Assembly: GCA_026874595.1 (NCBI GenBank)
Contig: CM049318.1
Span: 61,288,250-61,352,249 of the forward strand
Source of the DNA: Sipunculus nudus
Taxonomy: Eukaryota > Annelida > Sipuncula > Golfingiida > Sipunculidae
Direction: 5' to 3'
Length of the DNA stretch: 64,000 nt
In this document: piece by piece, positions 18,632-56,400 of the stretch
Layout: every line of letters starts with the position of its first letter
Position numbering within the stretch: position 1 is the first letter of the stretch
Translations under genes and position numbers: made by a program
Notes under the pieces: generated by a model
Told to the model about the DNA's origin: nothing
What the model saw: the letters and a program-made list of their open reading frames with translations, nothing else
The model's database searches: none

Positions 18632-18639
18632 CCACATTG
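18632..18639. repeat. Target site duplication, left (CCACATTG)
   Basis: The 8-bp direct repeat CCACATTG directly abuts the left inverted terminus. An identical copy abuts the right terminus at 34369-34376. Confidence 0.75.
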
Positions 18640-18707
18640 TATACCTGGCAGGATTTAAGGTACTGCTTTATTTTGTGACCCTCACAATCGGGGGGTAAAC
18701 ATCACAA
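18640..18707 (+). repeat. Left terminal inverted repeat of giant transposon
   Basis: Reads TATACCTGGCAGGATTTAAG and on through GTGACCCTCACAATCGGGGG to AACATCACAA. It is the inverted counterpart of 34290-34368. It begins only about 105 bp beyond the stop codon of the ATPase gene. Confidence 0.7.
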
Positions 18708-18811
18708 ATATTCTAAAGTTCTATCAATTTATAAATAATATATATGATTATCAATTTTCCATTTATCAATATCATTTAAATGAAATGTAGTAGTATATTT
18801 AAAGCACTTAA

Positions 18812-21800
18812 TTACCTCTTGCCACATAATGCTATCTCTTCGGTTTCATTAACATCTACTGGCTGGTGGTCCTCACTAATGTTAGTTGCATCTGCTACTT
18901 CCACAAGATGGTCCAGCCTCAAAGCTGAATAAATACAGAGATGCCGAGAATTACATCACTAAATCAAATGATGAATCTGTGAAGTTATAAAATATTCCTT
19001 GATATGTTGAATTTTGTTCTTACCAGGATATACTTTGTTCATAAGTTTCAGCGGAATGATGGTTTTCATTATTAAATATGCTGCCCCATTCTCTGGCCTG
19101 TCACTTTGATCCACATCAACTCTCCTTAAAGCACCAAACCACGAATTGCCCACTGTGACGTTCTCCTTTCCCAGGGTTCGCAGCTGGGCTGTTACTTCTT
19201 TCACAATGATGACAAGTTTTAGTTAACGATTTTGTGCAAATTGGTGGTAATGCTTTCTCAGAGAAACTCCAGCAATGGATCCTGCACAGGTAAAATTTGT
19301 TGCACATGGAGGCACCTTTTTCACCTGGTTCAGCACCTGTGTCACTCGGACGGCTATAGCTGGCACCCCTCTCCCATTCCCGAACTTCACCATTCACCAT
19401 CTTCCGTACCTGTAACAGGAAGGTGCATCTTAATTATAACCACTCACTTTGCAGTTTCTGAAGCCATGTCAGTGAAATGTAACGCCCCAGATTATGTAAA
19501 GAGGTTTTTCTCAAATGGAATATCCTACCTCATGTTTGCTGGTGTCAAATAGATATTCAAGGTGCTGCCTAAATGATATGTCTTCCTGGATGGTTTCGAC
19601 AGCTTGAAATCTGTGGACCCCTTTTGGTATTATAGTACCAACGAAAAAGTCCATAAGATCATCTGTTGTCACATGTAGACCAGGGGCACACTCCAGAATC
19701 TGAAAAGTAAGATTAATTAATAAATATTAACAATTTGGCAATGGGCAGTGGGCCTTTAATTAGCTGTGTATAAAATAGTGGAATCCGATTCATGAATGAT
19801 GTGCTCACCAGTTCAGCTAGGAAAATGGCTATGCCGTAGTTCCATGCCAGACGACCCTTCACTGGCGTGTCATCTAAACAGCTAAGGATGGTGTTCTCAA
19901 TATCCTTCACCCTCTCTTTCCATGCCGACTTAATCACATGTTGGAGCCTTATCAGGACAGGTAGTGCTTGACTGGCCTGCTCAGGGAATACAAATAGAAA
20001 GGAAATGGTTCACTACAATCAACATTTATTGCATTATTATTTATTTTTTTTAAACTATTGTTAACACATTTTCTTCTTAAATTTGAATAAATTGAAATTT
20101 GTACCTGGTCCATCGCATCATCAAGAGCATCTTCATCTGAAGATTGATGGGGGGTCTCTACAGGCACCAGCACATTGCGGGACAGGTCTCTCATCCTGAA
20201 ATCACCAAACAAGGTTGCATATATACATCCGAAGACCACAAAATGCAAAGTGCCATCACATTACGTTGTGCATGATATAATGTTATTTGTTTCAGTTTCA
20301 CAATCTCAGAATACTTACTCGTGCTCGTCACTGAGGTGTTCAGAGTAATCAAGGGACTTGTCCTGGGCATCATCTCTTTGATACAGTTAGCTATCTTCCT
20401 CTGCTCATAGGTCTGAAACAAAAATACAGGAGGTATATGTTGGATGTTTAAAAAATGTGTACAAGCAAAAACTTTACCAACACTTTACCAACAATAAAAA
20501 AGCAGTTAGTGTATGAACTAATTACCTTCATGGGTAGGTCTTTTAGCTGCCTTGCATCGTCTGGGTCACTGAGGACAAAGAAGGCAGCGTGATGTAGAAT
20601 CTCCTCAGATTTTGCTTCAGTCACCTGCAGTAAAATTGATGGTACAGTTGGTGTACAATGTACAAAAAGTTTCCTAAAGATTTTCCTCTGCTACTGCCAG
20701 TATTATCTATTATCTTAATATCTATTTTAATAGCAGAAGACATGATAGCCAGTATTATGGTGAGAAGGGACTCTGTGATTTATTTAACATCATAGCAAAT
20801 ATCAGACCAAACCAGTTATTAAATTATTTTACATGTGTTCAGTTACCTTCTTATAGATTCCGGTTCTGTGCATTCCAAGGAAGCTGGCAGCAACTTTCGC
20901 TAGAATGGATTTCCCTGTGTTGGAACTGCCCACTGCCACTGTCAGTGGCACACGGTGAAACAATGACAAAGTTTCATAATGCAGTGCACATTTAATATAT
21001 CTGGCTTTTTTCATTTTCAGACATGGATTTTAGAAAAACAATGTTTACATTGTATAAGCAATATTTTTTATATCAATATAGTTCATGAATATTGCTGATT
21101 AAACAATAAAACATACCACAGATGAAGATTCCAGCCAGCAAGGTCTCCCTGGTGACTGTGACCTCGACTGTCTTCAGTAATTCGTTGATCTTCCCTTCAT
21201 TGAATGTGCCTTAATGGGGAACAAGATTTGATACTTCAAAGGACAGGTTTATCAGTTTTGTATTATTTGTTCATTTCCTACACCCCAAACCATCCAATGA
21301 CATTTTGCACTGAAAGATGAACTGAAAGGAACAATCTGTATGATTTACCTGCAAATGTCACCTGTGGTAGTCCCTGCCATGTATCCGTCATCCACAGGGC
21401 AGTCTGGTCCAGCTGGGACACTTCAATGTCATCATGACTCAGGTACAGGGCTTCACTTAAGTTGAAGGTGCCATCACCCTGAGCACCCTGTGCTGTCACT
21501 GCCCGCACTTTTGGTGGCCCTTCAGTGAGACCATGGTTCCTTCAAGAAAATGTTAACATATAACCATGTTTATTTGCTATATTGTTAAGATTAGTATTTA
21601 TATATAAAATGGTGTATATATGGTGTATATAAAGGTTGCATTAACGGCATATGGTTAAAATACCATTAAGATCATTATTAGTGTCTCGTCGTTTTACTGA
21701 GGCTTATCAAAAGTACTAATATTGGATATAAATATAATGAAGCTTACTGGTAAAATTTCTTTAGAAGGTGAGTAAACAGCTTTCAAAGCTCTGCTGAGGT

Positions 21801-22233
21801 GCACCAAATCTGGAGTGGTGCTGCCTGAGACACTGCAATATAAAATTTAAAAATCAATTGTGTAAAATCAACATTGCATTTTATGAAACTTGCATCATAA
21901 GACCTACAAATTATTAGTAATGTTTTGAAAGTAGTGTATACTGATGATTCATGTATAAAATACATTTATAACTGAAAACAACTGACAGCTGTCATATAAA
22001 TACTGGCCATACAGCAATAAAATATCTATGAAATGTGATGTGATGAATACTTACTTGGCCTCACCATCGAGGGCATGGGAAATCCGGACAAAGAGTCCAT
22101 TTCCATCTGGCCCGCCATACACACATCTCACAACATCAATGGTAAAGTTTAGTGCCACTTCATAGAATCCGTTTTTGCTATCTGTACGCCGCCAAACAAG
22201 TGTGTATCCGTCTTCTACTTTCATCAGAGACAC
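18812..22233 (-). CDS. P-loop ATPase gene inside the giant transposon, at least 12-13 exons
   Basis: Exons by splice sites (minus strand): 22233-22055, 21832-21748, 21539-21349, 21209-21117, 20938-20847, 20624-20526, 20412-20319, 20195-20105, 19976-19809, 19699-19529, 19409-19325, 19197-19024 and 18924-18812, with TAA at 18812. Exon 5 carries a Walker A loop, VAVGSSNTGKSILAKVAASFLG, formed across a splice junction. Next come AAFFVLSDPDDARQLKDL and, further on, TLNTSVTSTS and MRDLSRNV, an order that recalls SF3/DUF927-type helicase-ATPases. The later GNSWFGALRRVD resembles a DDE-transposase segment but is not diagnostic. Two junctions as placed (21748/21539 and 20319/20195) do not keep frame, so it may be mildly decayed. 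A 127-bp intron at 19198-19324 removes an in-frame stop. Function is unknown; co-residence suggests a role in transposition. Confidence 0.6.
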
Positions 22234-22970
22234 CTACAATATAAAAAGGCGTTTTTTATATGTTGTAGATTAAAAGTGAGGCTTGAATTTTTATTTTAAG
22301 TTTGTAAGAATTCAAGTTGAACAATGGAGTGCATATGTGACTTACCATGCTTGTTGTTCTTGATACCAGCTAATCTTCGTGTTGAAGCTTCTGACAGACT
22401 GATGTATGGATGTAAATGTCAGGGTTATTTATTTGCTCAGTCAATCTTGGGACATCCAATTACAGGCTCCAAAAAACCTGGACCAATGAAGCGAAACCTT
22501 CCTGGTGTAGCAGTTAAGTGATCAATCACAGGCTAATCAGTGGCTGGAGTGAGCAGCATAGACAGTAATCTTGTAGTCAATCAGGGGACTTCAGTGTCAT
22601 ACCTGAATTGGCTGGCCTAATTAACAGGTGCACCCATGTCATTGTGTATCATCATGGTACAGGGTTTCCTAAACTGGGCTCACCCTAGGTGTTATGAAAA
22701 CAGTATGTTCTCTCCAATATCCTATGATTTTGTTACATAAGTTACATAACACATTATCTTATTTCAGCTAGCCATCCAGAGTTAATAATTAAAGTTGTAA
22801 TATCATCTAATGTACTGCCTCAACATTTCCTGTAAAATTCTTCGAATAGAATATGAATAACTACTTTTAAGTAGGACTTAATGTTAAAGATATAAAATTC
22901 AATGTAAATTGCATGTCTGTTTATAATTTATTTATACATATTATGTCTATGTTGTTTTGTCATTGCGTAC
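22234..22970 (-). promoter_or_regulatory. Leader/promoter region of the ATPase gene
   Basis: A donor site CATG|GTAAGT at 22346 suggests a 5' exon whose last codon may be the start ATG. On the plus strand, ATCACAGGCTAATCAGTGGCT (22529-22549) and TCATACCTGAA (22598-22608) match, in order and spacing, ATCAAAGGCTAATTAGTGAGCT and TCATACCTGAA at 30750-30816, upstream of the transposase gene. The two genes therefore seem to share a duplicated leader. No TATA box was identified. Confidence 0.4.
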
Positions 22971-23005
22971 CTTAGGCAGTAAGGCTTTCTTTCCTTCCAT
23001 GTAGC

Positions 23006-26000
23006 GGGTACATGCCGTAATGCCGAATGCCGACTACCACCTTGCCGATTCCTTTATGTCGAAACGCCGGTTTGCCGACTATGTCAATTAAACTATAATA
23101 TGAAGGTGGTTTCGGGATATGATGCTTGAAATACATGCTAGTGACTAAAATTCCTAATGTTGTATGTAGAATATGAGAAAAAGTTTTATCTCGGGCTGGA
23201 ATTTTAAGGTGCAAAGCAGGACTCGGCAACAGCCTGGCGGGCCCATGCGTCATGGCCGACTGACTTCGACTGATTAGCGTCTTATGGTCAAGCAAATTCA
23301 ATTAAAAAAAAACCCGTGATCAGTGTTGAAAATGTTTGCTGTAATCCTCTGTGGATGCATGAGCATTAGACCATATATATATGATGGTAACACCTGATCG
23401 ACGGATCGTCAAACGGCTAATATCAAACAGCTAATGCGTCTGTGTTTCATGACACTTGTATGAGCGTTTGTATGCGTATTGACCGATTAATTCATCAATG
23501 AAAAAATTTAATAAATATGCATAACTTGGAATTTTTGCCCTCTCCGTATTAAAAAAATCAGGATACAAAACGTTTAAAGTTTAATTTTCAGATAAAAACA
23601 GCAATCGGATTTAGGATTTGAATCAAGCGTTAATCCACTGTTCGATTGTATTTTATTTCGATATTTTGTTTTGTCGCCCCGTGTTATCATAAAGATTATA
23701 AATTAAAATGAAAGGTGTAAAAAACGAAGAAATAACTGCACCATGAATAGATTTTAGCTGACACAAAGAATTAGAAACTCCCAAAATGAACATCAAAAGG
23801 GAACACATTGATATGGGTTTTTTTTGTTAATTAATGGATCAATGGGATTACGAGTAACCGTGACCAATTGATTGTCGTAACAACACCAGAGTAACTGACT
23901 CATCGTGAGTACTTGGTAATCATGGTAACTTTAGGGCAACAATATGACAGAGATAATATTGAGAGAAAGAGAGAGATAACTTTATTGGTGAGGGATAGCG
24001 ATTAGTAAAATATGAGAGAGTGACTTATACTTTATTATACGTAAGTTAGGGAGTGATCAATATATTATTATAAGAGAGAGAGAGAGAGAAAGAGAAAGCA
24101 GTATAATATTATAAGAGAGAATAATATTATGTGAGAGAGCTACTAAAATAATAAGTGAGAGAAAAAAAGAGAGAAAGCGATCAGTGTAATAAAAGAGTGA
24201 AAGAGAGATCAATATATTATTATTATTATGAGAAATAGAGATAGAGCAGACGAGGACTAACAATAGACTGGAACCTTGGCACAGTAGTTTTGGAAGGACA
24301 GTGGGAAAAGTCTCTCCGAATATTTTTGAATTTTATCATGCACATTAAAGGCGAACAGACGAACACGGAAATAACGATATCGAATGCAAAGTTGGGAGCA
24401 CAACAAAATTCACCCAGAAGAAAATATAGGATCCGAAGCGAGGCCATTAAAACTCTGCAGGAACACTTGGTAGCCGGCGAACTCACCATCGACTCTTATC
24501 TAAGATAAATGAGGAGACCTGTGGGCTACAAGCGTTTCTAGGTCAAAATGATACTGAAAAGACTCATGCTGTGTTAGTTTTTCTAGTGTCATTTGTGTCA
24601 CATGGTGATGATTTTTTATATCAATAAATTATTTCTGCAGACGGTGATTCTTACGTGTATAAAATGTGTCACATGATGATGATTATTTGTACATATCAAT
24701 AAATAATTTTAGCAGACGATTTTTTTTGCATATCAATAAATTATTTCTGGAGGTGATTTTTACGTATTTATTCTTTCGTATTTATTCCCATGATTGCAAA
24801 TATACCATATATATACAAGTAACATTACATATATCCCCGTCGCCCTCATGATAAAAAGATAACACATAAATATCCTCTCTTTTATATCTATCGTGTAAAA
24901 TTTAGACTAATAGATATATTTCTCCATTTAGATACTTAAATCAGAATATTTTTCTCATGATAATATATTGATCTCTCTCTCTCTCCATATATTATATTAC
25001 ACATTAATATATATATTTTACTTTCTTACATATAAAGTATATTTAACATTACAAATAATATTTAATTAATCATTCTCTCTATCTCTCTCTCATATATTGA
25101 TCTCTGTCTCTCTCTCATATAATATTATATTGATCTCTGTCTCCCTGTCTCTCTCTTTCTCCCTTATAATATTATACTGATCTCTCTTTCTCTCTCTCTC
25201 AATACTATATTGATCACTCTCACACACTGTCTCTCTCTCTCTCATAATATAATTATGATATCTCTCTATATATTATAGTACACATTAATACAAATATATT
25301 CTTTTATTATATAAAACAGTTTTTTGTCTCCTATATCTAACAATTAATACGTATATATTTTTATCGCGATCTTTCCCTCATATAATATAACATTTAATTC
25401 TCGCTCTCATAAAATCATATTGATCTCTCTCTCTTATAAAATTAAATACTGATCTCTCTCCTCTCTCTCTCTTTCTTCCTCTCTCTTTCTCCCATATAAT
25501 GTTACATTTATTTCGATCTCTTTCAATCTTAAAACTGCTCTCATGAAATGAGCAATATGCATCGGAAAAGGATTAATAAATTATCGTTCCCCTTCAGTGA
25601 ACATGACTATCGGTTGCACACGATTAATCAGTTACTCCGGTGTTGTTTCAACAATCTATAGGTCACGGTTATTCCTAATTACCCTCCCATAGATCCCCTA
25701 ATTAAGTAGAAACCCCGATATCAAAGTGCTTCTTTTTGATGTCCATAGACTTTGTCGGAATACAATGAAAGCTAAAATTTATTCATTGTACAGATACTAA
25801 TAATTTTAAAAATTTTGTATCCCATATTTTTACATATCATCAGGATACTATGGAACGCTTACACGATATATCGAACTAAAATTCATGTTTGTGACACATC
25901 CAGTAGACGACCGTTGATTATTAAAGGAAGATGTCAATTTGAAAAAAATAAAATGAAATCATAACTTTCGTTCCACGATCGGTCTAACATTCCTTTCACA

Positions 26001-26415
26001 CATATTGTCTTATCGTATTTATGCTTCAACAAAGCTAACACAATGTAAAATATGACCATTAATAACAGTTTGATTTGTCTGAGGAAGCCTGCCTTTCACA
26101 TGTTGACCTTCGTCTTCAGTCGACTTGGCGACAGCCGGACGTGGGTGAAGTCAGTCGGCCATGACGCATGGGCCCGCCAGGCCATTGCCGAGTCTGCATT
26201 GCACCTTCAAATTCCAGCCTGAGATACAACTATTTTCTCATATTCTATATACAACATAATGAATTTTAGTAATTAGGATGTATTTCAAGCTTCATATGCC
26301 GAAACCATCTCCATATTATAGTTTAATTAACACAATCGGCAAACCGGCGTTTCGGCATAAAGGAATCGATAAGGTGGTAGTCGGCATTCTGGTTTCCGGC
26401 AATCAGGAATGACAC
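23006..26415. mobile_element. Mutator-like foldback element (3.4 kb) inside transposase exon
   Basis: A large imperfect palindrome. The left arm (23006 to about 24240) and right arm (about 24970 to 26415) are inverted copies; shared blocks include GCCGACTACCACCTT, CGAAACGCCGGTTTGCCGA and GGCGGGCCCATGCGTCATGGCCGACTGACTTC. The arms end centrally in complementary GA-rich and CT-rich tracts. The centre holds a MULE transposase fragment. A 9-bp duplication with one mismatch, CCATGTAGC (22997-23005) and CTATGTAGC (26416-26424), flanks it; 9 bp is standard for Mutator-like elements. Removing the element restores the transposase exon reading CYMEGKKALLPK. Confidence 0.75.
24256..24508 (+). pseudogene. 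MULE transposase C-terminal fragment
   Basis: It reads TNNRLEPWHSSFGRTVG and SPNIFEF, then shifts frame by one and continues KGEQTNTEITISNAKLG, PRRKYRIRSEAIKTLQEHL and ELTIDSYLR before TAA. N-N-x-L-E-x-W-H, HPNIF-like and PRRKYR blocks are typical of the C-terminal end of FLYWCH/MULE-type transposases in invertebrates. No catalytic DDE part remains. It lies in the single-copy centre of the palindrome, so this is probably an internally deleted MULE. Confidence 0.65.
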
Positions 26416-27038
26416 CTATGTAGCATCTCACATTGCATTGGTTGCTACGTGTCACCATCCTGTGAAGGTAAAACAGGTGGTGACACCTGGACATAGCACA
26501 CATTATCTTCTTGTAACTTCCCAACCAAACAAAAGTCTGCTCTGCTGCCATGGTATTTTTAGTTTCAACTAAGTCTGGGTGAGTTTTCCCAATCCTATCT
26601 GGGTTGTACAGTTTATGACATTTTTCATCTTTGTGTTTTTTGAGGCGGAGTCCATCTTTGACTTTGTTAATAATCAGCCACATCTTATTGAATGGTGCTG
26701 GCAGTGGAAGCTCTTTCTGTGCAGCTTTTGTTTTCATTAGATTGCACATATTATCATAAGCAAGAACAAATTTTTTTCCATACCTTCTTGGGAATAGAAG
26801 TCGGTATCAAGTACAGCCATGACAGCAAAATGACGAAGACTTGACCTTGGGATTCAGGTCTATAAAACAATCATAAACATTGTTTGCAGATTATATTTTC
26901 TATGATGATTTACTAATATATAATATATATATTATTTGTCTTGTGTTTAGCCATACAATAAATAATTACTAATTGATATAATTAGTATAAAAAAAAAAAA
27001 CATTTTATAAATCTTCAAAACAGAAAATAATACAATTG

Positions 27039-27071
27039 TATATATATATATATAAATATATATATATATAT
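27039..27071. repeat. (TA)n microsatellite
   Basis: Imperfect TA tract in the intron between the 26859 and 27093 exons of the transposase relic. Confidence 0.8.
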
Positions 27072-28044
27072 TTATAGTGAAGTTATACTCACTGATACAA
27101 CGGTGACCATTGGTCAATGTGTCCACCTGCACGAACAACAAAGAGATGGACCCTGGACATCTTTCTCAGTGTTTTGCTGTCTCCTAAATCTTTGTTACGT
27201 GCTCCCCTGTGAGGTTGTGTGTTCTCTGTGATTTTCTGTATGCTTTTCTCTTGCTCTTGAATAACCTTGTGACAACCTGTTAAGATAAAAACAAAAACTT
27301 ATGTGTTGGTTCTTATGTTATTGTAAGACATCATCTGACTGTATACCTGTTATTTAAGCAGCAATAATACTATTAGCTAAATACAGTACTGGTTTATTAT
27401 CTGTTAGGATATCGAGTTAGAATCACCTACTTTGACTTCCTATCACAGAGGCGCCACCGCTGCTTTTATCCTATACTTTCTCCAGTGCCTTGCCAATCTT
27501 GATGTTCGCTGCTGCGTTATTCTGCTGCTCACCTGAAATAGACATTTCTCCAGTCAGAAGACACTTTCAGTAATTTTGAGACCTTTCACTTTAAAATAAT
27601 GAGTTATTTTTTTTTTTCATTATCATGGTGAGCCTTTAATGCACAATAATTCGTAAAGTACATAATACAAATACAGGTTCTCGGGTAGATAAACCTCGGT
27701 ATTAGCTCTCACTATCCTTGAGGCCAGCATTTTGTAGGAATTCTCTTAATTTAGTGGGGATGCCATGTTTTTCCACAACAGGGCTATGTTCAGTGCAGAA
27801 GGCATCACCATGGAGAGGCTCGCTGGTGCATATGTCAGGCAAGTTTACCAAAGGAACCCCCATTGACTGAATGAAATTGAAAACAGGATTGTTAGTGATA
27901 TATTGCGTCCGGTCCGGTTGGTTAAAAAAATTGCATACCAGTCAATTAATAATAGATTGACCACATCTAAAACATGAAAAGGTATCTAGATCTAGATGAA
28001 CGATTTTAATTATAATGTCCCCACTCTGCCTTTTCAAAAATAAC

Positions 28045-28157
28045 CATTTAAATGACCATTATCTACCTTTTCATTGCACTTAAATTTAACAAAATATATT
28101 TCCAATGAAAGCAACTAGCTGCTCACCTCAGTTTCAGTTCGAGTACTTTTGAATTTC
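28045..28157 (-). repeat. Duplicated exon-donor fragment, copy B
   Basis: About 113 bp closely matches 29911-30035. It includes the end of the 29993-30067 exon, its GT donor and about 70 bp of following intron. Here it lies inside a later intron of the same relic. Shared landmarks are ACCATTTAAAT, CTTTTCATTGCACTTAAAT and GCAACTAGCTGCTCACCTC. Confidence 0.7.
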
Positions 28158-29811
28158 AAAAGGAATTGAATGTATGTAAATTACCTTTTTCTTGAACATG
28201 CAGTAGAAACTGCAACTTCCAAAGACCATCTACAACCCACAAGCGCCCACAACCTGATTAAAAAAAATACCATATATTATTTTGGCTGTGAAAGGGCATT
28301 ATAAGGTGCAGCAAATATCTCTTTATTGTGGTAGTCCATATGCATGAGTGTTGTACCTGTATGTCTTGTTGTGCAGGCAATTTAATACATATAAATATGT
28401 AGAGTACATTATATGAGAGTGAATCATTACAAGTCTGAAATGTAAGCAGGATTCCTTACCACGTCTTGCACTTTCAGGTGGGCAGGTGGGTTGCGGGTAG
28501 AGGGTTTTCCTCCGATGATCATCAATGGCTGTCATGCAGAATTCTCGGTCAACATTATTCTTATATCGGAAATCATGCCACCCCAAGTCACGCAGCTCTT
28601 GTTCAGTTTCTCCCCACCAAAATGCATCGGCAAACAGCTTACGGTTTATTGCTCCTGTAATGAGTCAATGTGTACTTTGAAATCAATAGATATTTCTCAC
28701 TTTTATTTCTCACAGTCTACCTTAAAGCTCGACTAGAATCATGCAATAAATTTGATAAAATGGGGACACGGTCCATCTAAGTCTCATGTTTAAAATATAT
28801 AAATGGTACAAGTGTCCACATACCTTCTTGTTCACCTGTTGCATCCTTCTATGATTCTGCGAATGCTTCAAATGAGACCCAAGCATGTTGACTGTAAAAA
28901 GAGTGTATTTTCGTCTGAATAGTGCGTTTGTGAAGAATGTCAAAAATTATTATTCTGAAACCAACATTGATTCATAATGATTGGTTTCATTAACATTTAA
29001 TATAAATTATAAAAATGGATACAAAAGGTCTATCAGTGATCTTGGCAAGTATTGGCAACATAAGAAAAGATTATAATTGTGGATTAGCTAAGGAAACTAT
29101 ATGTCACTCACGCAAATGCCCACTGAAGGTTGTACACCTGACGGTCGATGTAAACGGCATCTGATGCTTCCACGGCAGGTCGTGGTTGATTGTAAAATTG
29201 AAATCCTTCTGCTTTTGATCCATACATGGCATAATTATATATCAGGCCACATTCAGGGCATTTTAGACATACTTTGAGTTTTTTCAAAACTTTGCCATTT
29301 GGAGCCAAGTATTTGACATTAGTTGCTTTGTTATTTATGTTTAATTTATAAGGCTGTCCATTCTTTTGGTGACACTGCAAGCAGTGGTCAGTTTGTGGGG
29401 CCAGGCAGTATTGTTCCCGTAGTGGTACATTACAGTCAAAAATATCATCTTGGTCACTTTTAACCAGCTGAACCTCTTTGCATATCTTCAAAAATATTAA
29501 ATTAGGTAAATGGCTGTTCAATGCAGCTAGGTTCCATCTGAAATTAGTAGGAACAGTCGGTGGCACTGCTGATACCATCAAGCACTGCTGAGACTGCCCT
29601 GTAACCATATTTCACGATGAGCAATAGAAAAGTTGTTTCCCAGTTGATTCCTTCGGTGACCTCTTGTATCTTCAGGGTATCAATTAATCTCTGCAGCTGA
29701 GGAAAATATTTATTATAGGATTAGATATCGGGCTTGACACAATGGTTCAGATATGTCAGCTAATGGAGCAGAAACTGAATTTCTAATATATTTATTTGAC
29801 ATATACGTGTA

Positions 29812-29815
<4 letters not shown>

Positions 29816-29877
<62 letters not shown>
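29816..29877. repeat. (AT)n microsatellite
   Basis: About 30 AT dinucleotides within an intron of the transposase relic. The open frame crossing it is an artefact. Confidence 0.85.
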
Positions 29878-29884
<7 letters not shown>

Positions 29885-29910
29885 ACTCATATGTAAGATG
29901 TACATTCTGA

Positions 29911-30035
29911 CATTTAAATAACCATTATCAACCTTTTCATTGCACTTAAATATCACAAAATATATTTCCATTGAAAGCAACTAGCTGCTCACCTCGTTTT
30001 CAGTTTCAGCTTGTGTTTGAATACTTTCGAATTTC
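29911..30035 (-). repeat. Duplicated exon-donor fragment, copy A
   Basis: Parent-position copy of the fragment at 28045-28157. It carries the functional-looking splice donor (GAG|GTGAGC) of the exon 29993-30067. Confidence 0.7.
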
Positions 30036-30067
30036 TCATCAAGAGCACTTCGTATTTTTTCCGCGGC

Positions 30068-30871
30068 CTATTCATGATGTTGTCCAGAGAAGTGAATAAG
30101 TGTTTAAACCTTAATATTTTATGCTTTCATGTAATGGTGAATTATACACATGTATAATAAATATGGTACAATGATAGAGGCAATTGCATAATCTTCATGA
30201 ATATTAAAGTGACATGACAAAACTATAGGCTGTGTTTATATTTTATGGATTATTATATATAACATATGTGTGACAAATCAAGTTATTACGCATTGATAGT
30301 ACTGAGAAGTGATATGCGTGTGAATACAATTAGTGGCCGAGGCTGTGTTTATATTATTTCAATTATTATATTTAACATATGAGTGACACATCATGTTACT
30401 AAACAGTAATAGTACTGAGATGATTCTGTAAAAGGTCATTCCTAGTAATGCTTAGCTTTTATTTTAAGCATAAAATTTTAAAAAGTTACACTTACCAAAC
30501 TAATGAACCGGGCAGCAATTCAGGTCAAAAATGAATTTCCAAGGAAACCTCTGACACAGGCAGGTTGCAACTTCATCAACATGTATTGGTTTCTTGGAGA
30601 TGATTTCCCAGATATAAAGCAGGTAGGAAGCCAGACAGCACAATATGGTCTGGGCTATTTGGAGTCACAATCACCAGGATTATAATAGGTCACAGACAGA
30701 GTAATAGGATGAGAGGCCAGCCTTAGAATATGCTAGGCATCTAAAGTAATCAAAGGCTAATTAGTGAGCTAAGGAAAACCCCCATGAGAGGGTGCATGAC
30801 TACATCATACCTGAACAACAACAGAACATGGGTTACCACAGAAAAACATATTACAGCTTGAAGATTTATTA
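30068..30871 (-). promoter_or_regulatory. Leader region of the KDZ-type gene
   Basis: A strong donor, TTTG|GTAAGTGTAAC, ends a possible minus-strand exon at 30500. Its upstream part carries the blocks shared with the ATPase leader at 22529-22608 (AAAGGCTAATTAGTGAGCT, TCATACCTGAA). The plus-strand open frame at 30503-30685 has no recognisable motif. I could not place the true start codon. Confidence 0.35.
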
Positions 30872-33800
30872 TTGTGACGTTTACATCCATTTGTGAAAGC
30901 ATCTCAGGAAAGAGGGGTCAGACAGGAGAAGATAAAAAGTTTGTGATGTTTCCATCCAATTGTGATAGCATCTCAGGACAGAGGTGTCAGACAGGGGGAG
31001 CTAGCAAGTTTGTGATGTTTCCATCCAGTTGTGATAGCATTTCAGGAAAGAGGGGTCAGACAGGGGGCGCTGACATGTTTGTGATGTTTAAATCCATTTG
31101 TGATAGCTTTTCAGGAAAGAGGGGTCAGACACGGGGAGCTAGCAAGTTTGTGATGTTTAAATCCATTTGTGATAGCATTTCAGGAAAGAGGGGTCAGACA
31201 GGGGGAGCTAGCAAGTTTGTGATGTTTCCATCCATTTGTGATAGCATTTCAGGACAGAGGGGTCAGGCAGGGGAGCTAGCAAGTTTGTGATGTTTCCATC
31301 CATTTGTGATAGCATCTCAGGACAGAGGGGTCAGACAGGGGGCGCTGACATGTTTGTGATGTTTCCATCCATTCGTCATAGCATTTCAGGAAAGAGGGGT
31401 CAGACAGGGGGAGCTAGCAAGTTTGTGATGTTTCCATCCATTTGTGATAGCATCTCAGGAAAGAGGTGTCAGATAGGGGGAGCTAGCAAGTTTGTGATGT
31501 TTCCATCCAGTTGTGATGGCATTTCAGGACAGAGGGGTCAGACAGGGGGAGATAGCAAGTTTGTGATGTTTCCATCCATTTGTGATAGCATCTCAGGACA
31601 GAGGGGTCAGACAGGGGAAGATAAAAAGTTTGTGACGTTTCCATCCATTTGTGATAGCATTTCAGGAAAGAGGGGACAGACAGGGGAAGATAAAAAGTTT
31701 GTGATGTTTCCATCTATTTGTGATAGCATTTCAGGAAAGAGGGGTCAGACAGGGGGCGCTGACAAGTTTGTGATGTTTCCATCCATTTGTGATAGCATCT
31801 CAGGACAGAGGGGTCAGACAGGGGGCGCTTACAAGTTTGTGATGTTTCCACCCATTTGTGATAGCATCTCAGGACAGAGGGGTCAGACAGGGAAAGATAA
31901 AAAGTTTGTGACGTTTCCATCCATTTGTGATAACATTTCAGGAAAGAGGGGACAGACAGGGGAAGATAAAAAGTTTGTGATGTTTCCATCCATTTGTGAT
32001 AGCATTTCAGGACAGAGGGGTCAGACTGGGGGCGCTGACAAGTTTGTGATGTTTCCATCCATTTGTGATAGCATTTCAGGACAGAGGGGTCAGACAGGGG
32101 GCGCTGACAAGTTTGTGATGTTTCCATCCATTTGTGATAGCATTTCAGGACAGAGGGGACAGACAGGGGAAGATAAAAAGTTTGTGACGTTTCCATCCAT
32201 TTGTGATAGCATTTCAGGAAAGAGGGGACAGACAGGGGAAGATAAAAAGTTTGTGATGTTTCCATCCATTTGTGATAGCATCTCAGGAAAGAGGTGTCAG
32301 ATAGGGGGAGCTAGCAAGTTTGTGATGTTTCCATCCAGTTGTGATGGCATTTCAGGACAGAGGGGTCAGACAGGGGGAGATAGCAAGTTTGTGATGTTTC
32401 CATCCATTTGTGATAGCATCTCAGGACAGAGGGGTCAGACAGGGGAAGATAAAAAGTTTGTGACGTTTCCATCCATTTGTGATAGCATTTCAGGAAAGAG
32501 GGGACAGACAGGGGAAGATAAAAAGTTTGTGATGTTTCCATCTATTTGTGATAGCATTTCAGGAAAGAGGGGTCAGACAGGGGGCGCTGACAAGTTTGTG
32601 ATGTTTCCATCCATTTGTGATAGCATCTCAGGACAGAGGGGTCAGACACGGGGCGCTGACAAGTTTGTGATGTTTCCACCCATTTGTGATAGCATCTCAG
32701 GACAGAGGGGACAGACAGGGAAAGATATAAAGTTTGTGACGTTTCCATCCATTTGTGATAACATTTCAGGAAAGAGGGGACAGACAGGGGAAGATAAAAA
32801 GTTTGTGATGTTTCCATCCATTTGTGATAGCATTTCAGGACAGAGGGGTCAGACAGGGGGCGCTGACAAGTTTGTGATGTTTCCATCCATTTGTGATAGC
32901 ATATCAGGACAGAGGGGACAGACAGGGGAAGATAAAAAGTTTGTGACGTTTCCATCCATTTGTGATAGCATTTCAGGAAAGAGGGGACAGACAGGGGAAG
33001 ATAAAAAGTTTGTGATGTTTCCATCCATTTGTGATAGCATTTCAGGACAGAGGGGTCAGACAGGGGGCGCTGACAAGTTTGTGACGTTTCCATCCATTTG
33101 TGATAGCATCTCAGGACAGAGGGGTCAGACAGGGAAAGATAAAAAGTTTGTGACGTTTCCATCCATTTGTGATAGCATTTCAGGAAAGAGGGGACAGACA
33201 GGGGAAGATAAAAAGTTTGTGATGTTTCCATCCATTTGTGATAGCATTTCAGGACAGAGGGGTCAGACAGGGGGCGCTGACAAGTTTGTGACGTTTCCAT
33301 CCATTTGTGATAGCATCTCAGGACAGAGGGGTCAGACAGGGAAAGATAAAAAGTTTGTGACGTTTCCATCCATTTGTGATAGCATTTCAGGAAAGAGGGG
33401 ACAGACAGGGGAAGATAAAAAGTTTGTGATGTTTCCATCCTTTGTGATAGCATTTCAGGACAGAGGGATCAGACAGGGGGCGCTGACAAGTTTGTGACGT
33501 TTCCATCCATTTGTGATACCATTTCAGGACAGAGGGGTCAGACAGGGGGCGCTGACAAGTTTGTGATGTTCCATCCATTTGTGATAGCATTTCAGGACAG
33601 AGGGGACAGACAGGGGAAGATAAAAAGTTTGTGACGTTTCCATCCATTTGTGATAGCATTTCAGGAAAGAGGGGACAGACAGGGGAAGATAAAAAGTTTG
33701 TGATGTTTCCATCCATTTGTGATAGCATTTCAGGACAGAGGGGTCAGACAGGGGGCGCTGACAAGTTTGTGACGTTTCCATCCATTTGTGATAGCATCTC

Positions 33801-34188
33801 AGGACAGAGGGGTCAGACAGGGGGCGCTGACAAGTTTCTGACGTTTCCATCCATTTGTGATAGCATCTCAGGACAGAGGGGTCAGACAGGGAAAGATAAA
33901 AAGTTTGTGACGTTTCCATCCATTTGTGATAGCATTTCAGGAAAGAGGGGACAGACAGGGGAAGATAAAAAGTTTGTGATGTTTCCATCCATTTGTGATA
34001 GCATTTCAGGACAGAGGGGTCAGACAGGGGGCGCTGACAAGTTTGTGACGTTTCCATCCATTTGTGATAGCATCTCAGGACAGAGGGGTCAGACAGGGAA
34101 AGATAAAAAGTTTGTGACGTTTCCATCCATTTGTGATAGCATTTCAGGAAAGAATTTGTGATAGTATCTCGGGACAGAGGGGTCAGAC
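30872..34188. repeat. 69-bp minisatellite, about 48 units, with higher-order structure
   Basis: Tandem units start with TTTGTGA.GTTTCCATCC and continue ATTTGTGATAGCATTTCAGG, ACAGAGGGGTCAGACAGGGG and a variable 8-11 bp end (CGCTGACAAG, AAGATAAAAAG or AGCTAGCAAG). A block of 12 units is duplicated at exactly 828 bp (rare variant GAGGTGTCAGATAGGG at 31463 and 32291). Towards the right end a three-unit module of 207 bp is repeated. Because 69 is 23 codons, several frames on both strands stay open, including one of 736 codons. Single-base indels near 31268, 33439 and 33565 break frame without effect on the array, which argues against a protein. Confidence 0.9.
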
Positions 34189-34289
34189 ATGTATATACAC
34201 TTGGAATATAGAATGAGGTATACTATGTAACATTCCAAATACAAACACTTATATAGTTATAACTGTACATATATACATTGATATATACA

Positions 34290-34368
34290 TTGTGATGTTA
34301 ACCCCCCTATTGTAAGGGTCACAAAATAAATTGTTTTCTGACCAGTACCTTAAATCGTGCCACAAATG
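34290..34368 (-). repeat. Right terminal inverted repeat of giant transposon
   Basis: Inverted counterpart of 18640-18707. It reads TTGTGATGTTAACCCCCCTA, GGGTCACAAAATAAA and CAGTACCTTAAATCGTGCC up to the CCACATTG duplication. Confidence 0.7.
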
Positions 34369-34376
34369 CCACATTG
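34369..34376. repeat. Target site duplication, right (CCACATTG)
   Basis: Identical to 18632-18639 and at the same distance (26 bp) from the shared GGTACTG/CAGTACC block. Confidence 0.75.
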
Positions 34377-39770: not shown

Positions 39771-39820
39771 ATTTTGTTTTACCCATGTCCGTCATTCCGT
39801 CATTCCAAAATCAAACAGTT

Positions 39821-40360
39821 GTACGGACTTTTTTTCGCAATGCCTGCAGATATTGGCCTGATTTTTGGTGTGTGGGCAGATAATGACCAGTTACAGATCG
39901 AGTTCCTGTTTCGTCCCGGTTGACCTACTTTTGACCGTTTTACGGCTCCTAAACTTAGAAAATTTCATGAAAAATAGAAATTTTCATGACAAATACACAT
40001 GTACGGACTTTTTTTTGCAATGCCTGCAGATATTGGCCTAATTTTTGGTGTATGGGCAGATAATGACCAGTTACAGATCAAGTTTGCGTTTCGTCCCGGT
40101 TGACCTACTTTTGACCGTTTTACGGCTCCTAAACTTAGAAAATTTCATGAAAAATAGAAATTTTCATGACAAATACACATGTACGGACTTTTTTTTGCAA
40201 TGCCTGCAGATATTGGCCTGATTTTTGGTGTGTGGGCAGATAATGACCAGTTACAGATCAAGTTCGCGTTTTGTCCCGGTTGACCTACTTTTGACCGTTT
40301 TACGGCCCCTAAACTTAGAAAAATCCATGAAAAATAGAAATTTTCATGACAAATACACAT
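39821..40360 (+). repeat. 180-bp tandem array, 3 units
   Basis: GTACGGACTT recurs at 39821, 40001 and 40181, exactly 180 bp apart. Each unit carries GCAATGCCTGCAGATATTGG, CAGATAATGACCAGTTACAG and GTCCCGGTTGACCTACTTTT. The same array in copy B starts at 55849, 56030 and 56210. Confidence 0.9.
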
Positions 40361-40371
40361 GTTCAGCCGTT

Positions 40372-55742: not shown

Positions 55743-55848
55743 TTTTTATGCCCCTGCCACAAAGTGGCCGGGGCATATAGTTTTACCCATGTCCGTCATT
55801 CCGTCAGTCCGTCATTCCGTCAGTCCGTCATTCCGAAATCAAACAGTT

Positions 55849-56390
55849 GTACGGACTTTTTTTCGCAATGCCTGCAGATATTGGCTTGATTTTTCGGTGT
55901 GTAGGCAGATAATGACCAGTTACATCTCGAGTTCGCGTTTCGTCCCAGTTGACCTACTTTTGACCGTTTTATGGCTCCTAAACTTAGAAAATTTCATGAA
56001 AAATAGAAATTTTCACGACAAATACTCATGTACGGACTTTTTTTCGCAATGCCTGCAGATATTGGCCTGATTTTTAGTGTGTGGGCAGATAATGACCAGT
56101 TACAGATTGAGTTTGTGTTTCGTCCCGGTTGACCTACTTTTGACCGTTTTACGGCTCCTAAACTTAGAAAATTTCATGAAAAATAGAAATTTTCAGGACA
56201 AATACACATGTACGGACTTTTATTTCGCAATGCTTGCAGATATTGGCCTGATTTTTAGTGTGTGGGCAGATAATGACCAGTCAGGATCGAGTTCGCGTTT
56301 CGTCCTGGTTGACCTACTTTTGACCGTTTTACGGCTCCTAAACTTAGAAAAATTCATGAAAAATAGAAATTTTCATGACAAAAACACATG
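55849..56390 (+). repeat. 180-bp tandem array, 3 units, copy B
   Basis: Units begin at 55849, 56030 and 56210 and correspond one to one with those at 39821-40360. Confidence 0.9.
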
Positions 56391-56400
56391 TACAGCTGTT

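Follow-up and report, generated by a model that had tools for sequence, protein, structure and literature searches.

We find that an interval in a 64,000-nucleotide stretch of Sipunculus nudus DNA (the whole stretch analysed is referred to below as the window) very likely represents a DNA transposon that was once autonomous and is now old and inactivated; it falls in the KDZ (Kyakuja-Dileera-Zisupton) group, with array-bearing ends and, in part of the family, an ATPase-like gene. At 15.7 kb, it would represent a little-studied type of transposon, and comparison with related copies in the same genome indicates that both the ATPase-like gene and a 69-bp tandem array belong to it. The features of the interval are listed in Table 1.

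Table 1. Features of the putative transposon and of the insertion nested in it (window coordinates)
Feature	Coordinates	Strand	Basis or detail
Left target-site duplication, CCACATTG	18632..18639		first of the two window copies
Left terminal inverted repeat, TATACCTGGCAG type	18640..18707	+	alignment; relatives in the genome
ATPase-like gene, 11 exon matches, Walker-A-like motif GSSNTGKS	19119..22230	-	exon translations; own-genome matches
Left duplication of the nested insertion, ATGTAGC	22999..23005		7 bp
Nested transposon-like insertion, 3,412 bp	23006..26417		169-nt inverted arms, 23013-23181 and 26233-26401
Right duplication of the nested insertion, ATGTAGC	26418..26424		7 bp
Putative transposase gene, multi-exon, broken	26420..29696	-	exon translations; own-genome matches
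CxC5 cysteine cluster of the transposase	29123..29410	-	PF18718 profile match
Subterminal array, 69-bp unit x 47.6	30872..34153	+	reads toward the right terminus; homologous arrays in relatives
Right terminal inverted repeat, CATTTGTGGCAC type	34285..34368	-	alignment; relatives
Right target-site duplication, CCACATTG	34369..34376		second window copy

Ends of the Element and Target-Site Duplication

The sequences reading inward from positions 18640 and 34368 are inverted copies of each other, with a local alignment score of 91, compared to a maximum of 37 for 297 random window segments. The original prediction, which had matched 18640-18707 to 34290-34368, was correct on this point, and also in placing the end of a GGTACTG block, common to both termini, 26 bp inside the boundary on each side. 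The same 8-mer, CCACATTG, directly abuts both termini, as predicted; it occurs exactly twice on the plus strand of the window and not at all on the minus strand (at a given location, 8 bp would match by chance with a probability of ca. 2.5e-5). The element proper extends from 18640 to 34368 (15,729 bp).

The source genome (1.43 Gb, 153 contigs) was searched for the left end, using positions 18632-18760 as a query. At least 28 matches were obtained, both window ends included, and five loci with paired ends other than the window (C2, C15, C7, C6, and C14) were examined. The termini proved to be of two asymmetric types, one starting with TATACC and the other with CATTTG (CTTTTG in C6). Each type is present once in the window, C2, C15, C6, and C7; the left end of C14 is decayed. 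Two traits of Zisupton elements were tested at these loci. Terminal inverted repeats are present in the window and in its relatives. The 8-bp duplication, perfect in the window, is also perfect in two of the five other loci, matches at seven of eight positions in one, and was not found in the remaining two. The perfect cases are C2:11921370-11924848 (3,479 bp), flanked by two copies of CACAAACA, and C15:16409563-16409790 (228 bp), flanked by two copies of CTATCGTA; both have ends of the TATACCTGGCAG and CATTTGTGGCAC types. The imperfect case, C7:15279828-15293183 (13,356 bp; hereafter C7:15.28), lies at a G/C-rich site, and the loci where no duplication was found are C6 (949 bp) and C14 (3,281 bp). 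Since C2 and C15 show the same two kinds of end next to duplications, the window boundary is fixed independently of the window itself.

Transposase Gene and Assignment to the KDZ Group

When the putative transposase was used in a protein search of its own genome, at least 44 exon matches, grouped into at least 12 loci, were obtained. The PF18718 (CxC5) profile matched above its cut-off in the window, both in a contiguous frame (E 5.6e-8) and in joined exons (E 2.9e-10), and in the C12 copy (E 3.1e-12). A profile search with PF18758, the KDZ transposase domain, gave no match in the window transposase and a sub-threshold match in the C12 relative (18.4 bits, E 0.0018; cut-off 26.6 bits). Motifs YDNMCN and NTMAAEQTF were read by eye in the window, C5, and C12 copies, and WVVDG was read in the window, with WVADG in C12. 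YDNMCN, AAEQTF, and VVDG/VADG are candidate sites of the acidic catalytic triad of an RNase H-like fold. In the C12 copy, the seven exon stretches with a match are all free of stop codons; one TAA was counted in a longer version of its last transposase match. Joined transposase exons had no match in a protein database, a weak negative, since the collection is probably poor in eukaryotic relatives.

Based on the CxC5 cluster, the length of the duplication, and the multi-exon gene, we assign the predicted transposase to the KDZ group. Of the KDZ/Zisupton identity originally proposed, the group thus stands, with its own domain profile missed in the window and sub-threshold in C12. The assignment ends at the group level, and a choice between Zisupton and Dileera would need a transposase tree. 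According to the available portion of PMC12730594, 8-bp duplications are found both in Zisupton and in a Dileera family. Kyakuja of the fungal type, described in the same portion as having a 7-bp duplication, CA..TG ends, and no terminal inverted repeats, does not fit the 8-bp duplication and the clear inverted repeats of the window element. Nematode Zisupton elements have multi-exon genes and inverted repeats, with no duplications found, as far as the accessible text of PMC9297572 goes.

Gene Order in Related Copies

No transposase or ATPase gene matches were found within the end pairs of C2, C6, C14, and C15. The original prediction had counted termini without the genes, and at other spacings, as evidence against a single element. 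These four loci are such cases, and they are best read as presumptive non-autonomous derivatives, because the 8-bp duplications of C2 and C15 are perfect and a transposase lies between the related ends of C7:15.28. In C7:15.28, both ends are present and the internal transposase matches cover residues 12-434 of 580. Outside the array, only the termini and two transposase exons of this element align with the window.

A copy at C7:55.05 Mb (C7:55) is colinear with window positions 21056-31273, from the ATPase-like gene to the array; the alignment is broken by the nested insertion and, at 26594-26749, by a gap. Identity in aligned parts is mostly 86-89% (95% over one 173-bp stretch), and by this measure the window and C7:55 copies are not young. 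Downstream of its genes, the C7:55 stretch yielded no terminus. Another copy, C3:10.21, contains a left terminus, an array, ATPase exons, and transposase exons in the order and on the strand seen in the window. Its left terminus is 89% identical over 56 bp to the end of the C7:15.28 element, and its identity to the window is 44-49% in the ATPase and 46-58% in the longer transposase matches. It is a diverged fragment, in which the matches are limited to the front of the ATPase and the final stretch of the transposase. The C16:13.23 locus also has a terminus and an array, together with a fragment of the transposase and an ATPase match that is weak (28%, E 6e-4), but their order differs from that of the window.

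These copies bear on whether the interval is a chance composite, in which a short non-autonomous pair of ends, or a series of nested insertions, encloses an unrelated transposase relic and a host ATPase gene. Several end copies are indeed short, with no genes detected, and, among the matches listed, no transposase was detected close to six of the 11 ATPase loci (two of the six are weak matches). However, C3:10.21 and C7:15.28 repeat the terminus, array, and transposase in the same order, C3:10.21 adds part of the ATPase, and C7:55 is colinear from the ATPase to the array, save for the two breaks. We therefore consider a composite very improbable.

ATPase-Like Gene

A search of the genome with the ATPase-like protein yielded at least 33 exon matches, grouped into at least 11 loci. 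Five of the 11 loci among the matches listed have a transposase close by: that of the window and those at C7:55, C5:80, C3:10.21, and C12. The ATPase matches begin 0.8 kb behind the transposase in C7:55 and 0.9 kb behind it in C5:80, co-directionally in both cases; the distance is 1.7 kb in C3:10.21, and 4.2 kb in C12, where the two are head-to-head. Because C3:10.21, the strongest single piece of evidence, keeps the order of the window and five of 11 ATPase loci adjoin a transposase, we conclude that the ATPase-like gene probably belongs to the element.

Relatives with both genes in the same direction gave matches to the front of the 522-residue ATPase only (C7:55, residues 1-184; C5, 2-36; C3, 1-59 and 89-130), and none of the matches reaches the Walker-A motif. 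The GKS of this Walker-A-like motif is kept in the window and C4 copies and changed in C12. Pfam matches were below cut-offs for both DUF927 (E 0.043 and 0.19) and AAA_22 (E 0.13), and searches with joined exons and with the C12 copy revealed no DUF927 or AAA match. A DUF927 identity was considered and dropped, with E values of 0.04 to 0.19 being below cut-off. Other sub-cut-off Pfam matches were to HTH_8 (E 0.029-0.2) and Rep3_C (E 0.046). Neither the joined ATPase exons nor an alignment of three ATPase copies matched anything in the protein database, a collection that probably holds few eukaryotic relatives. No credible PDB match was obtained by sequence (best E 0.24) or by profile (best E 1.3), and a single PHROGs match (E 0.089) was to a family of unknown function. 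Rfam searches at gathering scores gave no match in the window.

The gene might instead be a captured host gene, a passenger with no role in transposition that was retained by descent in part of the family. No ATPase was detected in C1, nor in C7:15.28, which also lacks matches to the final quarter of the transposase, and several ATPase copies are orphans. In C7:15.28, a 237-bp satellite fills much of the space where the ATPase and the end of the transposase are expected, and so this element is no evidence that the ATPase was missing from the outset; the orphans, in turn, may be decayed copies. Against a passenger, the ATPase adjoins the transposase in C3 and C12, whose longer transposase matches are only 33-59% identical to the window transposase, which indicates that the association is old. 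A passenger is a serious possibility, if a somewhat doubtful one.

Subterminal 69-bp Array

Arrays homologous to that of the window are present in many end-bearing or transposase-bearing loci; in C1, no more than 0.8 kb separates an array from the point where the transposase matches end. Eighteen ends were mapped, a subset of the at least 28 end matches (12 from the six paired loci and six single ones). Arrays were found beside 15 of them, and all 15 read outward, to their terminus. The three ends with no array are the left end of the window and both ends of the 228-bp C15 element, so that the foldback-like trait of inverted ends with internal tandem repeats is seen in the window at the right end only. 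No array was present in the C5 and C12 transposase stretches examined. The core of the unit, TTGTGATGTTTNCATCCATTTGTGAT, has 25 fixed positions at which the consensus sequences of 11 array loci all agree; these consensuses were built from BLAST matches to the unit of the window, a choice of loci and units that biases them towards similarity. The terminal repeats contain, at their inner edge, a portion of the unit.

From this comparison of loci, we conclude that the 69-bp minisatellite is the element's own subterminal end structure, not cargo. Ordinary minisatellite expansion with no function in transposition seems unlikely to us. It would agree with the wide swings in copy number (from 0 to 49 BLAST matches per element) and with the ability of these elements to carry other satellites, such as the 237-bp array, but not with a single orientation at 15 of 18 ends, a core that is constant across diverged loci, or the portion of the unit that the terminal repeats contain at their inner edge. 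As an end structure, the array is probably a set of transposase-binding sites, since its orientation and core are constant and there is a precedent in Galileo, an element of the P-element superfamily in which tandem repeats within the long ends contain further transposase-binding sites (PMC3688188, from the part of that paper available). The parallel with Galileo lies in the tandem repeats within long ends. Its transposase, with a THAP domain, is of a different superfamily, according to the same part of PMC3688188, and binding in the window element is presumed.

Decay and Nested Insertion

The transposase gene of the window contains a stop codon at 28851-28849 and its frame is broken near 29585 and 26765. 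Relatives match across both of the latter places in one frame (C7:55, residues 1-191; C12, residues 434-580), and so these disruptions are more likely breaks than splice sites. The 23006-26417 segment, located at the end of the transposase gene and absent from the colinear C7:55 copy, is a later insertion and not part of the host element. Judging from the stop codon, the frame breaks, and this 3.4-kb insertion, the window copy is dead.

The original prediction had described one element carrying a transposase-like gene, an ATPase-like gene in the same orientation, and a large minisatellite as cargo. All three components are present, and their union in a single element is supported by gene order in the relatives; the array has to be reassigned from cargo to end structure, and the nested insertion removed.

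Proposed Mechanism and Relation to Known Elements

Cut-and-paste transposition by a KDZ transposase, with staggered joining, fits both the ends and the duplications. The transposase would bind the short asymmetric terminal repeats and the subterminal arrays pointing at each end and would then excise the element; joining to a target cleaved with an 8-bp stagger would produce the 8-bp duplication. In the part of the family that contains it, the ATPase-like protein may assist in assembly of the transposition complex or in target choice.

In bacterial Tn7, Mu, and IS21, a transposase gene lies beside an ATPase gene, and several transposase sites are located near each end. By analogy, the present family could be a eukaryotic cut-and-paste system in which a transposase works with a dedicated ATPase for assembly or target choice, and with binding sites arrayed at the ends; we regard this as quite unlikely. 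No sequence relation to the bacterial ATPases emerged from the general profile and database searches. The founding papers on Zisupton/KDZ elements are reportedly those of Boehne (2012) and Iyer (2014). They were outside the reach of our literature search, which found no paper joining Zisupton with an AAA ATPase among those listed, and the novelty of this combination is thus provisional.

As far as the available parts of PMC12730594, PMC9297572, and PMC12062965 go, the window element has in common with Zisupton/KDZ elements an 8-bp duplication, terminal inverted repeats, a multi-exon transposase, and a cysteine cluster of the CxC series. It differs from them in having a second, ATPase-like gene, outward-pointing subterminal arrays, and, in its C12 relative, a PF18758 score below cut-off. 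The extra domains reported for KDZ elements in those parts are others (TET/JBP genes in fungi and, in platyfish, an F-box carried by a single isoform). Tetris and other foldback elements also have inverted ends built of internal tandem repeats, and the C2, C6, and C14 copies, largely ends and arrays with no genes detected, are foldback-like. Tetris is apparently non-autonomous, in the portion of PMC4079207 available, whereas the window element has gene-bearing relatives with the same ends. Zisupton and foldback co-occur in PMC4022104, a paper whose main text does not contain Zisupton; from the text retrieved, this paper and PMC7599744 are among those with Zisupton plus "subterminal" or "minisatellite". 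An oyster genome paper names Kyakuja and Zisupton once each.

If our interpretation is correct, one branch of the KDZ group has foldback-like arrays and a second gene linked to the transposase, and a more complex transposition apparatus would then have evolved in these elements. The proposal makes two points testable, the 69-bp unit as a transposase-binding site and the need for the ATPase. The gene-less copies illustrate a route by which such ends may spread satellite-like DNA across a genome.

Repeats and reading frames in the element and its relatives

By eye, a short stretch spanning an exon end and the start of an intron appears to be duplicated within the transposase gene; the related copy near C7 55.05 Mb contains a second match for each of the two window segments. 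In the diverged C12 copy, transposase exon matches were free of stops, and the ATPase gene was head-to-head relative to the transposase. No terminal repeat was listed for its three stretches, and an array search, from which L057 was left out, revealed no array in the C12 transposase stretch.

In the related C7 element near 15.28 Mb, a 237-bp satellite (ca. 31 copies) occupies the place corresponding to the ATPase gene of the window element. Elsewhere in the window, two separate arrays, ca. 16 kb apart, each contain three copies of a 180-bp unit that is almost identical in both.

Coordinates of the features (bare numbers are window positions)
Feature	Coordinates	Stretch
Diverged C12 copy	C12:5034001-5039000 and 5039838-5047345	L057, L022, L013
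237-bp satellite	C7:15281622-15289000	L054 2622-10000
Apparent duplication	28045-28139 and 29911-30034	
180-bp arrays	39820-40362 and 55848-56393	
750-residue frame (+)	31245-33497	

Inside the 69-bp array lies a 750-residue frame without stops, built of 23-residue repeats. Such a frame arises because the 69-bp unit is divisible by three, and we take it to be a by-product of the array.
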